Of a stretch of DNA of 64,000 nucleotides, positions 24,218-32,128 are shown in pieces. The stretch is from Thermasporomyces composti (GTDB lineage Bacteria > Actinomycetota > Actinomycetes > Propionibacteriales > Actinopolymorphaceae), in assembly GCF_003386795.1 (NCBI RefSeq), contig NZ_QTUC01000001.1:3844001-3908000 (forward strand), written 5' to 3'. Every line of letters begins with the position of its first letter. The first letter of the stretch is position 1. The notes under the pieces are model-generated. The model ran no database searches. It had not been told where the DNA came from and was given only the letters and a program-made list of their open reading frames with translations. The translations under genes and the position numbers were made by a program.

Positions 24218-25288
24218 TCAGCTCGCGGGGAATCGCTCCACCGGCTCGGGACGGCCCGACTCCGCCGACCGTGCCGCGGCCTCGGCGAGCGCGAGGCTCG
24301 GGAGATTGCGCCGACCGGACGTCTCCGGCTCGGTTCCGGTCGCCACGGCCTCGGCGAACGCGACGAGGACACCGGCACGCCCGACGTACTCCAGCTCCGT
24401 CAGCGGCACGAGCTCCTCCTGGACGGCCTGGTCGGTGCCAGGTCGTGGCCGCCGACGGATGCGTACCACGTCTCCGCGAACCGAGCCGACCGGCCCATCA
24501 CCCCGTCCGGTCCAGAACAGCTCACCGTCCTCGCATTCCAAGCTCCACGCCCCCGACCAGGTGGTGGGCTCCGCGGTGCTCACCCAGCTGCCGCGATAGC
24601 TCACGACCGTGCCTCGGTCGAAGGTGATGGTGAGAACCGCGGCGGCCTCCTCCACGAAGTTGCTCCAGGGCGGGTCCGTGATCTGGGTGAAGACCCGCAC
24701 AGGCTCTTGACCCAGCACCATCCGCATGAGGTCGAAGTGGTGGATGGCCATGTCGAACAACAGCGGATGGCGCAGCTTGTAGTGGCGCCGAGTGCCCGGC
24801 GGCGCGTCGTTGGCCCACTTCCGGAAGTCGACGTTCACGCTCCCGACCAGACCCAGGTGGCGGTCAGCGACCAGGCGCGCCGCCGTGCGCGCTGCCGGAT
24901 GGAAACGGTAGTTCTGGCTCACCATGAGCACCCGGCCGGCCGCGTTCGCGGCCTTGACCGCCTGCTGGGCCTCCGCCACCGTCGGCGCGAACGGCTTCTC
25001 GAGCAGGACGTGACGTCCCGCGGCCAGCGCCTCGAGAGCGAGCGGGACGTGCGCGGCCAGGGGTGCGGTGATGAGGACGGCGTCCGCCTCCACGGTCGCG
25101 AGCGCGGTCGCCAAGTCCGTGAAGCACTCTCTCTCGCCGAGGTCGAACTCCTCCCGTGCTTTCGCCAGCGTCGTCGGATCGGAGTCGACCACCGCGACGC
25201 GGTCGACCATGGGAACCCGGGGGAGAGCGTTGGTCTCCCAATCGCGCCCCCAGCCACCGAGTCCCACGTGGATCAGCCGCAGTGTCAC
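24218..25288 (-). CDS. Gfo/Idh/MocA-family oxidoreductase (3)
   Basis: A 356-residue NAD(P)-binding dehydrogenase, starting at GTG 25288 after AAGGGAG. The Rossmann loop is HVGLGGWGRDWE, the catalytic motif EKP is intact (HVLLEKPFAPTVAEAQQ), and the substrate domain has HPLLFDMAIHHFDLMRMVLG with the expected Asp and His pair. It is more distant from the two oxidoreductases at 17-20 kb than they are from each other by motif layout. It is convergent with the ferredoxin reductase (14-nt gap) and precedes a methyltransferase on the same strand. Substrate unknown; sugar or inositol derivatives are usual for the family. Confidence 0.86.
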   Translation of the reverse strand: MTLRLIHVGLGGWGRDWETNALPRVPMVDRVAVVDSDPTTLAKAREEFDLGERECFTDLATALATVEADAVLITAPLAAHVPLALEALAAGRHVLLEKPFAPTVAEAQQAVKAANAAGRVLMVSQNYRFHPAARTAARLVADRHLGLVGSVNVDFRKWANDAPPGTRRHYKLRHPLLFDMAIHHFDLMRMVLGQEPVRVFTQITDPPWSNFVEEAAAVLTITFDRGTVVSYRGSWVSTAEPTTWSGAWSLECEDGELFWTGRGDGPVGSVRGDVVRIRRRPRPGTDQAVQEELVPLTELEYVGRAGVLVAFAEAVATGTEPETSGRRNLPSLALAEAAARSAESGRPEPVERFPAS

Positions 25289-25450: not shown

Positions 25451-26176
25451 TCATCGCAGACGAAGTTCGGCGAGGTAGTCGGGGCCGTCGCTGTCGAGCG
25501 CGGCGAGCTGCCACGGCGAGGTGGTGAGGAGGTCGACGAGCTCGTCCTGCGAGCAGAACAGGTAGTCCAACCACCGGTCGGCCAGTCTTCCGACACGGCA
25601 GCGGATCCGGGTCTGGCCCCCGAGCCGGCCGTGGGCGCGGTTGCAGGCGTGGTAGGCGGTGTGGAGGGGGTCCTCGGTCACGTACGGGTCCCGGTTCCGG
25701 CCGAGGATCCGCGCGTCCGGCGCGGCGACCGCCGCGAGAGCGGCGAGCGCCGCCTGCGCACGGCCGGGCGACCCCAGCAGCGCGAGGTTGTTCCCGAGGA
25801 GAAGGAACGTGTCGAACCGCTCGCCGAGGCTCGTCACGTCCTCGAGTCGCACCTGGTGGACGCGTCGAACACCGCGCGCGCGGGCGACCTGGCACGCGCC
25901 GGGGGAGACGTCGATCGCGGTGACCTCGCGTCCCTCCGCTTGGAGGTGCAGGCTGTGCCGGCCGGCTCCGCATCCCACGTCGAGGACGTGGCCGACGGCG
26001 CGCTGGCAGGCGAGCCGGTCCAGCGCGTCCCACTCGTCGGGGCCGGTGAAGTAGATCCGGGGATCGTGGACCTCGACCAGCCCGTCGTCGCGTTCGATCA
26101 CGCCGAGGACGTCGTGGCCGTCGTGCGCCAGGCGCAGCAATTCGCCGAACGCGTCGCCGGTGGTCGGTCCGTCCAT
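25451..26176 (-). CDS. Class I SAM-dependent methyltransferase
   Basis: About 241 residues from ATG 26176 (weak ribosome site). SAM-binding motif I reads HVLDVGCGAGRHSLHLQAEG, followed by the acidic end of strand 2 (VTAIDVSPGACQVA), then EDVTSLGERFDTFLLLGNNL for motif II/III, where GNN is typical of this uncharacterised sub-group. The N-terminus has an acidic EVHDPRIYFTGPDEW. The substrate cannot be predicted. It is divergent from the four-module CxxC/CxxH protein, with 155 nt between them that must contain both promoters. Confidence 0.82.
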   Translation of the reverse strand: MDGPTTGDAFGELLRLAHDGHDVLGVIERDDGLVEVHDPRIYFTGPDEWDALDRLACQRAVGHVLDVGCGAGRHSLHLQAEGREVTAIDVSPGACQVARARGVRRVHQVRLEDVTSLGERFDTFLLLGNNLALLGSPGRAQAALAALAAVAAPDARILGRNRDPYVTEDPLHTAYHACNRAHGRLGGQTRIRCRVGRLADRWLDYLFCSQDELVDLLTTSPWQLAALDSDGPDYLAELRLR

Positions 26177-26331: not shown

Positions 26332-27747
26332 ATGGACGACACTGTGGGCATGGCTCTTCGCCGGTGGCTGACCACCCTCGTGCGGCGCGATCCCGGACCC
26401 GACGCCCGCACCAAGGCCGAGGCGCTCCAGCTGTTGGGCGGTGAGGGGTGCCCGGTCTGCCGTGTGGCCGAGGACGCGGTGCGGCGCTGGTTCCACACCT
26501 ACGAGAACGAGAGTCGCTCGGATCCGCGGATGCGGGAGCGGATCGAGCGTTCGTTCGGGTTCTGCGCGACGCACACGCGTCACTTGCTCGATCTCGGCGC
26601 TTCCAGCTCGTGGCTGGCACGGTGGGTGTTCGCGGACGTGGCCCGCGCCGGAACCGCCGCTCTGCGTGTGGCCACGGTTCCGACGCCGGAAGCGTGCCCG
26701 GCGTGTGAGGTCGCGGCTCGCGCGGTGACGGACACCTTGGGCACGCTCGCGGTCGGCCTGGTGGATGACGAGGCGAGGAGCCTGTTGGACGCTGGCGACG
26801 GCTTGTGCGTGACGCATGGCGTGGCGGTGATCGAGCGGAGCGGGCCCGTTGTCGCCCGGGCGGTCGCCGAGATGCTGGAGAGCCGGTTGGGCAAGGACCC
26901 CGTGCTGGCTCGCGACCACCTCATCGGCCTGGATCCGGATCGGTCACGTCGGCGGCGCGCGCGGGAGGAGCGAGCCGAGCGGGTCCTCGCGGCGGAGGAG
27001 ACGAGTCGTCGTCGCGGAAGCGCGGCGGACCTCGTGCTCGACTGGCCGTGCTGTCCTCTGTGCGCGGCGGCGGACCGAGTGGAGTGGCGGTACCTTCACT
27101 GGCTTGCCGGGCTGAGCCGCGACGAGAGCGCGGAGCTCCGAGCGGAGGCGATGTTGTGCCCTCGTCACCTCGGCGACCTCACGTCGTTCCGGCACGTCGG
27201 CGACCTCTCGGACCGTGAGCTCACCGACGACGGACTGCTGGGCTCGGTCGCCGCGGTGATCGACCATGTGGCGGGCCTGTGGCGCGCCGATCTCCACGCG
27301 TTCCTGCAGCGTCTGGACGCCAGTCCTTGGGCGGGCATCGTCCACGTCCAACCGCCTCGTGGGGTGGAGTCCTGTCAGCTTTGCGCACGGAAGCGGGCGG
27401 CGGAGCAGCGCGAGGCGCGCTTGTTGGAGGCCATCGCCGCCGACCCGGCGTACGACGCCCGGCTGTCGCGGGCGCACGGTGTGTGCCTGCGACACGGGCT
27501 CACCACGGAGCTGCCGCCAGCGTGGCGGCGTCTGCTCCGCGCGCGGGTGGGTCTGCTGTCGTTCGAGCTCGACGAGGCCGAGCGCAAGGCAGGCTGGGAC
27601 GCTCGCTGGGAGGTCCGGGGCAGCGAGATGGCCGCATGGCGACGGGCGCCGACGCTCCTCGACGGCGCGGTGCTGGGTCCGATCGCACCGGACTCCGATC
27701 CGCCGCCGCGGACGTCGGCACCGCCGGAGCCACCTGACGCGCTGTAA
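26332..27747 (+). CDS. Four-module CxxC...CxxH putative zinc-binding protein (DUF6062-like)
   Basis: A 471-residue cytoplasmic protein. Four metal-binding modules can be read, each CxxC then 31-34 residues then CxxH: C40/C43-C78/H81, C122/C125-C159/H162, C241/C244-C276/H279 and C348/C351-C385/H388. Between them lie Ala/Arg-rich helices, and an Arg/Glu-rich linker separates modules 2 and 3. The modules resemble the uncharacterised DUF6062 type (CPVC... followed by GFCATH), known to me mostly with fewer copies. Starts at ATG 26332 or ATG 26350 are both possible; neither has a strong ribosome site. No catalytic motif is visible; a structural zinc, scaffold or redox role are all possible. The C-terminus is Pro rich. 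Confidence 0.7.
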   Translation: MDDTVGMALRRWLTTLVRRDPGPDARTKAEALQLLGGEGCPVCRVAEDAVRRWFHTYENESRSDPRMRERIERSFGFCATHTRHLLDLGASSSWLARWVFADVARAGTAALRVATVPTPEACPACEVAARAVTDTLGTLAVGLVDDEARSLLDAGDGLCVTHGVAVIERSGPVVARAVAEMLESRLGKDPVLARDHLIGLDPDRSRRRRAREERAERVLAAEETSRRRGSAADLVLDWPCCPLCAAADRVEWRYLHWLAGLSRDESAELRAEAMLCPRHLGDLTSFRHVGDLSDRELTDDGLLGSVAAVIDHVAGLWRADLHAFLQRLDASPWAGIVHVQPPRGVESCQLCARKRAAEQREARLLEAIAADPAYDARLSRAHGVCLRHGLTTELPPAWRRLLRARVGLLSFELDEAERKAGWDARWEVRGSEMAAWRRAPTLLDGAVLGPIAPDSDPPPRTSAPPEPPDAL

Positions 27748-30880: not shown

Positions 30881-31306
30881 TCAGACGGTGCCCAGGTCGG
30901 AGGAGAACCAGCGCTCCGGCCGCATGTAGAAGATGACCTGCTCACCATGCGTGGCCTCGGCCATCGCCATGTAGCCGGGCACCTTCTCCTCCGGGAGGTA
31001 GCGGCGACTGATCTCCTCGAGGTGTGCGCGCGTCGCCGGCTCGGTCCGGGTGACCGCGCCCTCGACCGAGACGTAGCGGATCGTCGGCTCGACTCGTTCC
31101 ACGAGCAGGCTGAACTGGCCCGCGGCCCGGATCAGCCGCGCCTTGACCGAGTTGGCGCCGGTCATCACCCACAGCTCGCCGCCCGGTGTGTACTGGTACC
31201 AGACCGGCACGACCAGGGGTGGACGGTCCGCGCCACGGGCCACGGCGAGGGAGCCGATGTGCGGCTCGGCGAGGAACCGCTCACGTTCGTCGACGCTCAG
31301 GGGCAT
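30881..31306 (-). CDS. Pyridoxamine-5'-phosphate-oxidase-family (PPOX) split-barrel flavoprotein (1)
   Basis: A 141-residue split-barrel protein, starting at ATG 31306 after GGAGG. The fold is visible in LAVARGADRPPLVVPVWYQY, ELWVMTGANSVKARLIRAAGQF and ERVEPTIRYVSVEGAV. Such proteins bind FMN or coenzyme F420 and act as small oxidoreductases or heme-binding proteins; the cofactor cannot be told here. A paralogue of identical length lies 168 nt further along the same strand, with a nearly identical central DNA segment, so duplication or gene conversion is likely. Transcription probably starts upstream of each gene separately. Confidence 0.8.
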   Translation of the reverse strand: MPLSVDERERFLAEPHIGSLAVARGADRPPLVVPVWYQYTPGGELWVMTGANSVKARLIRAAGQFSLLVERVEPTIRYVSVEGAVTRTEPATRAHLEEISRRYLPEEKVPGYMAMAEATHGEQVIFYMRPERWFSSDLGTV

Positions 31307-31473: not shown

Positions 31474-31899
31474 CTAGAGGGTTCCCAAGTCGGAGGAGAA
31501 CCAGCGTTCCGGCCTCATGGCGAGCACGATCCGCTCGCGCCCGTCGTTCTCGGCGTTCCTGACGTACCGGCTGGCCTGCTCCTCCGGCAGGTAGCGACGA
31601 TGCAGCGCCTCCAGGTGTGCTCGCGTGACCGGCTCGACCCGAGCGAGGCGGCCCTCGACCGAGACGTAGCGGATCGTCGGCTCGACTCGTTCCACGAGCA
31701 GGCTGAACTGGCCCGCGGCCCGGATCAGCCGCGCCTTGACCGAGTCGGCGCCGGTCATCACCCACAGCTCGCCGCCCGGCGTGTAGTGGTACCACGTCGG
31801 CACCACCAACGGTGGGTTGTTCGGTCCGCGCGCGACCGCGAGGGAGCCGACGTGGGGTTCGGCGAGGAACTGCTCGCGTTCGGCAACGCTGAGCGGCAT
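31474..31899 (-). CDS. PPOX-family split-barrel flavoprotein (2), tandem paralogue
   Basis: A 141-residue paralogue of the gene at 30881-31306, starting at ATG 31899 with GGAGG upstream; a longer in-frame start lacks a ribosome site. The central segment (SVKARLIRAAGQFSLLVE, then RVEPTIRYVSVEG) is identical in protein, and 31651-31745 is identical in DNA to 31058-31152. The C-terminal thirds diverge (RRYLPEEQASRYVRNAEN against RRYLPEEKVPGYMAMAEA), while the ends match again (RPERWFSSDLGT). The cofactor (FMN or F420) is undetermined. It is divergent from an MFS transporter gene. Confidence 0.8.
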   Translation of the reverse strand: MPLSVAEREQFLAEPHVGSLAVARGPNNPPLVVPTWYHYTPGGELWVMTGADSVKARLIRAAGQFSLLVERVEPTIRYVSVEGRLARVEPVTRAHLEALHRRYLPEEQASRYVRNAENDGRERIVLAMRPERWFSSDLGTL

Positions 31900-32128
31900 G
31901 GAGGCCTCCAGTCCCGGCATCGAAAGGCTGTCACCGGCCGCCGGCCGTGCCGCCAGCATACGTGGCCCTGGAGTCGTGCCGGTGGCGTGCGCTGACCGGA
32001 GGGCGATGACCGAAGGGCTTGGGCGGCGACGTAGCCGGCCACGCGGCCTGCCGAGGTGGGACGACGCCTGGGAGCGACGCGAATTTGGGTAGCCGGGCTT
32101 CGGGGGCGACCCGCTACTGTGGCACGAC

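Follow-up and report, generated by a model that had tools for sequence, protein, structure and literature searches.

A four-module protein of Thermasporomyces composti reads as a tandem fusion of two DUF6062 domains, a family that looks linked to the fluoride response

The window (the whole stretch of DNA that was analysed, 64,000 nucleotides from Thermasporomyces composti) contains a gene whose product, judged from its sequence, joins two DUF6062 domains in tandem within a single chain, and relatives of this gene are found downstream of fluoride riboswitches in Actinomycetota and Armatimonadota. The explanation that best accounts for the observations as a whole, and which we consider moderately probable, is that the protein is built of zinc-stapled helical units and acts in fluoride stress as an adaptor or chaperone. 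Few microbes escape the toxicity of fluoride, and apart from the exporters little is known of how the cytosol is defended against it. A protein family without an assigned function that turns up repeatedly right behind fluoride riboswitches in two phyla represents a concrete, testable candidate for such a role. This reading would provide the first functional hypothesis for DUF6062 and account for the four modules by a fusion; should it hold, DUF6062 could aid the engineering of fluoride-tolerant strains for organofluorine degradation.

The start of the 471-aa open reading frame is common to relatives (M-x-x-T-x-x-M-A), and the gene is present as a single copy in the 4.37-Mb, one-contig genome. 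Its product carries four CxxC/CxxH modules at exactly the residues listed in a preliminary description of this DNA (Table 1), which also credited them with nearly equal spacing. The latter holds within the modules, where the spacers measure 31-34 residues, but not between them, as successive CxxC motifs lie 82, 119 and 107 residues apart, which points to modules arranged in pairs and not to a series of four equal repeats. That the motifs form a chance array devoid of structural meaning is a reading to which we give almost no weight, since even one module appeared in just 0.1% of 20,000 shuffles of the protein and more than one in none. It is refuted by ligand conservation: the Cys/His ligands, whose loss among homologues the same description had named as an observation that would speak against the sites, are invariant at all 16 positions in 12 four-module homologues (26-66% identity), including those at 26-29% identity.

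Table 1. Coordinates of the four-module gene, its parts and related features (window positions unless a locus is named)
Feature	Position	Strand	Remarks
Four-module tandem DUF6062 protein gene	26332..27747	+	ATG start, open frame, 471 aa
Module 1: C40, C43, C78, H81	26449..26574	+	spacer 34
Module 2: C122, C125, C159, H162	26695..26817	+	spacer 33
Module 3: C241, C244, C276, H279	27052..27168	+	spacer 31
Module 4: C348, C351, C385, H388	27373..27495	+	spacer 33
N-terminal DUF6062 copy, residues 20-217, modules 1 + 2	26389..26982	+	half-domain alignment, AlphaFold2 model (mean pLDDT 84)
C-terminal DUF6062 copy, residues 218-471, modules 3 + 4, motif E..R..W..R.E..G.E...W..A	26983..27744	+	half-domain alignment
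Divergent methyltransferase gene	25451-26176	-	Pfam Methyltransf_25
Variant fluoride riboswitch upstream of crcB, Actinopolymorpha	L080:1501-1570	-	
Variant fluoride riboswitch upstream of crcB, Actinopolymorpha	L034:13883-13952	-	
Variant fluoride riboswitch, window genome, C1 ~1823525	L101:3526-3607	+	model R1
DUF6062 loci of the subclade without riboswitch link	L158:1024-2208, L166:5728-6984, nine similar		

The whole protein matches the Pfam family PF19538 (DUF6062) with an E-value of 8.6e-10 and 38.9 bits against a cut-off of 27, whereas a single place alone, in a six-frame search, reaches 21.9 bits; an NCBIfam search with the protein gave no match. Separate proteins of about 235 aa with two modules each cover profile positions ~14-235 of 243, indicating that one DUF6062 domain comprises two modules and that the window protein thus consists of two such domains. 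The pattern of two CxxC-X33/34-CxxH modules in a unit of ~200-240 aa, present in 58 separate proteins, occurs twice in the window protein. Compared with the two-module PF19538 proteins (~205-250 aa), the window protein is alike in its CxxC-X33/37-CxxH pairs and its C-terminal motif, but differs in having two domains per chain with four sites and an N-terminal copy in which, in the half-domain alignment, that motif is not recognisable. In the C-terminal copy, residues E415, R418, R425, E427, G430, E432, W436, A439 and G445 are invariant, as is the motif E..R......E..G.E...W..A. When the N-halves and C-halves were aligned together with two separate DUF6062 proteins from one Armatimonadota genome (L039), the eight ligands were the sole invariant columns. 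The suggestion that a DUF6062-like unit had been repeatedly duplicated is thus borne out as to family and to origin by duplication, but the unit is the two-module domain; four equal DUF6062 repeats are ruled out, as a single DUF6062 already holds two modules.

Profile comparison with hhalign aligned module 1 of DUF6062 with module 2 at a probability of 98.2% (E 3.5e-14), while all ten column-shuffled controls stayed below 1%, and on this comparison the two modules are homologous to each other. In a 74-row tree, from which two two-module reading frames were left out as apparently spurious (L065_1 and L147_1), the C-halves of all four-module proteins fall on one side of a branch with 97/91 support and the N-halves on the other; seven of the eight N-halves cluster (94/83), and the eighth sits on a very long branch. 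This topology fits a single origin of the four-module form, and the simplest reading is that a module gave rise to DUF6062 by a first duplication and that DUF6062 then underwent one tandem duplication and fusion before the four-module lineages split. Three Armatimonadota genomes (L039, L159 and L164) carry two adjacent two-module DUF6062 genes, both downstream of one fluoride riboswitch; these pairs, like the window protein, amount to four modules, but theirs are distributed over two polypeptides, whereas those of the window protein are joined in one fused chain. L039 was accordingly rejected as a four-module homologue, and the tree gives no sign that the window fusion descends from the Armatimonadota pair itself. 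Four-module homologues were present in all eight sampled genomes of the window's family (Actinopolymorphaceae), with Actinopolymorpha alba, A. pittospori and A. rutila as the closest named relatives, and in none of the 49 other members of the order searched; further ones come from Rubrobacteraceae, from a Nitriliruptoraceae MAG and from another actinomycete. A separate case is a fluoride-riboswitch DUF6062 locus in genome G042 (L073:6610-7739), in which module 1-like and module 4-like sequences lie in two overlapping frames, representing either a frameshifted or a shortened version.

CrcB- and DUF190-like neighbours of the relatives gave reason for an Rfam scan, which found RF01734, the fluoride riboswitch, ahead of DUF6062 genes in both phyla. 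Across 65 DUF6062 genes in 57 genomes, a same-strand upstream aptamer was found within the region examined in 33 genomes; in 21 it lies within 1 kb of DUF6062, often at 50-130 bp, against a chance expectation of ~0.02 genes at this distance. For the actinobacterial set, with a background of 27 above-cut-off aptamers in about 57 Mb, 6 of 19 genes have an aptamer within 1 kb where 0.0045 would be expected (P ~1e-17). At E <= 0.01, the 4.8-Mb genome L039 yields a single RF01734 match, which sits immediately 5' of its two tandem DUF6062 genes, and in several Armatimonadota the sole match of the genome is likewise the one at DUF6062. In Rubrobacteraceae, the four-module gene ends a same-strand operon resembling complex I or formate hydrogenlyase, headed by a riboswitch ~7.8 kb upstream of that gene (G109:C3:205877-205943). 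As relatives lie repeatedly in riboswitch-controlled clusters, DUF6062 looks like an unrecognised fluoride-defence family, a large share of which at least, from its genomic setting, appears to take part in the fluoride response. This linkage speaks for regulation and not for biochemistry; what we say below about metal, client and mechanism goes beyond it by inference.

Genes beside riboswitch-linked DUF6062 encode CrcB and DUF190 (both identities confirmed by Pfam), Na+/H+ antiporters, enolase and formate-hydrogenlyase-like proteins. Recurring same-strand partners include a Na+/H+ exchanger (11 loci) and an MFS transporter (8 loci), followed by a zinc-ribbon-HEAT protein, a dynamin-like GTPase, Usp, DUF190 and enolase. 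PMC11139923 reports exporters, Na+/H+ antiporters, enolase and formate hydrogenlyase as fluoride-riboswitch genes, and PMC2864571 reports mutS and formate hydrogenlyase; the passages searched in these papers list neither DUF6062 nor any zinc protein among the fluoride components. Relative to this regulon (CrcB/Fluc, CLC-F, Na+/H+ antiporters, enolase, formate hydrogenlyase and mutS), the DUF6062 relatives lie in the same operons behind the same RNA in two phyla, but the window copy lacks the riboswitch. No paper mentioning DUF6062 by name was found in the literature searched, nor was an earlier statement of its link to fluoride in that same literature, outside which lie the original fluoride-riboswitch paper (Baker 2012) and its supplement. 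The dynamin-like GTPase stands beside DUF6062 at seven loci (L068:3792-5549, L069:9133-10902, L074:4352-6169, L149:3166-5007, L168:3196-4977, L175:2428-4332 and L177:3222-4991), and the fluoride literature found makes no mention of such a partner. The small zinc-ribbon and HEAT-repeat protein adjoins DUF6062 in fluoride loci at L066:7395-7874, L069:7355-7849 and L039:5293-5907.

The remaining 24 of the 57 genomes are without a riboswitch link, some of them with the gene on short contigs, and 11 of these, all Armatimonadota, form one clade with 100/100 support. In this subclade, DUF6062 lies behind a coiled-coil protein that has a membrane anchor but no Pfam family, and MutY lies further upstream in four loci. 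The different context of this clade makes a more general role possible, in which DUF6062 would be a structural zinc protein serving as a helical-repeat adaptor of a housekeeping or stress complex, with the riboswitch as one of several controls and the window protein not specific to fluoride. Such a role, compatible also with the lack of a riboswitch near the window copy and the Nitriliruptoraceae copy and with the general nature of the recurrent partners Usp, dynamin-like GTPase and zinc-ribbon-HEAT protein, is in our judgement unlikely, though worth serious attention, in view of the close riboswitch placement in 21 genomes and of the genomes whose only RF01734 match sits at DUF6062. By comparison, the proposal that DUF6062 is a dedicated, previously unrecognised family of fluoride-defence effectors in at least two phyla, acting inside the cell beside the exporters, with actinomycetes having fused two copies into a version with four metal sites, has in our estimate an even chance of being right.

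An AlphaFold2 model of residues 20-217, built from a 14-row half-domain alignment, is all-helical (pLDDT 84, core 93-97, pTM 0.75), and in each module the CxxC begins a long helix, a short helix follows and the CxxH begins another helix; the full-length model was built from 6 sequences and has low confidence (pLDDT 62). The four ligands of each module are expected to lie close in space, and Zn(II), serving as a structural staple, is the most likely occupant of the predicted Cys3His sites. CPxC at helix starts is typical for zinc sites, which counts against the view that the sites hold Fe-S clusters and make DUF6062 a redox protein or a sensor for a formate-hydrogenlyase-like complex. Three cysteines and one histidine are a permitted Fe-S ligand set, and the sites, while compatible with Zn(II), would fit such a cluster as well; the position of the four-module gene at the end of the Rubrobacteraceae operon points the same way, but no redox complex stands beside DUF6062 at most other loci, and we regard this view as very improbable. 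Somewhat less improbable, though still doubtful, is a role in metal handling, in which thiolate-rich sites would store or deliver zinc or another metal so that metalloenzymes stay supplied when fluoride ties up metal ions. In its favour are the conserved Cys3His sites, two or four per protein, whose ligands are the only invariant residues of the unit, and a Cation_efflux (CDF) gene directly 3' of DUF6062 in L064; against it, one full ligand set per helical unit, at a strict spacing of 34/33, has the look of a structural site more than of an exchangeable one, and the neighbours include no recurring metal-uptake genes.

Foldseek searches with the full-length and half-domain models returned nothing significant (best E 1.9), a second structural comparison (VIA) reached at best Z 4.3 over 70 residues, and a sequence search of the PDB gave no convincing match. 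As fold searching supplied no informative relative, the adaptor role is a matter of inference, and it is the least certain step of the proposed mechanism, one that even with the fluoride link granted we would put at slightly below an even chance. In the fluoride-response reading, rising fluoride would switch on the riboswitch, and DUF6062 protein would then accumulate in the cytosol as a metal-stapled helical adaptor or chaperone, where it may support the exporters or fluoride-poisoned Mg-dependent enzymes. It would be controlled together with CrcB, DUF190, Na+/H+ antiporters, MFS transporters, enolase or formate-hydrogenlyase-like complexes, and the four-module form would be a covalently joined version of the two-gene pair seen in some Armatimonadota.

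The orthologue and a crcB operon are convergent and only 0-1.4 kb apart in all seven relatives from the window's family; in the window genome, the crcB-DUF190-crcB operon is located 2 Mb from the DUF6062 gene. The genes at 24218 (left) and 32129 (right) flank both the window gene and its Actinopolymorpha orthologues, indicating the same orthologous interval, and on gene order the window locus most likely corresponds to the orthologous site with the crcB operon missing. Six Actinopolymorpha genomes harbor a variant aptamer just upstream of crcB, which scores about 16-20 bits in Rfam, ends 3' in ACGGUCCCUG instead of AUGACUCCUAC and is missed by the RF01734 cut-off. A covariance model (R1) built from these variant copies together with canonical aptamers matched the window genome at E 3e-14, directly upstream of crcB-DUF190-crcB, at a copy that had not entered model building. 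Within the 64-kb window, RF01734 has no match at the gathering score, and neither a permissive scan nor R1 detected a riboswitch upstream of the window gene. With neither a crcB neighbour nor a riboswitch, the window gene is probably expressed constitutively or under another control. The divergent methyltransferase gene noted in the preliminary description does exist but is not conserved beside the orthologues, and a functional pairing with it was therefore dismissed. Elsewhere in the window, two adjacent duplicated genes on the minus strand (30881-31306 and 31474-31959) share long common stretches and the start MPLSV.ER..FLAEPH.GSLAVARG, their predicted products resembling pyridoxamine-phosphate oxidases.
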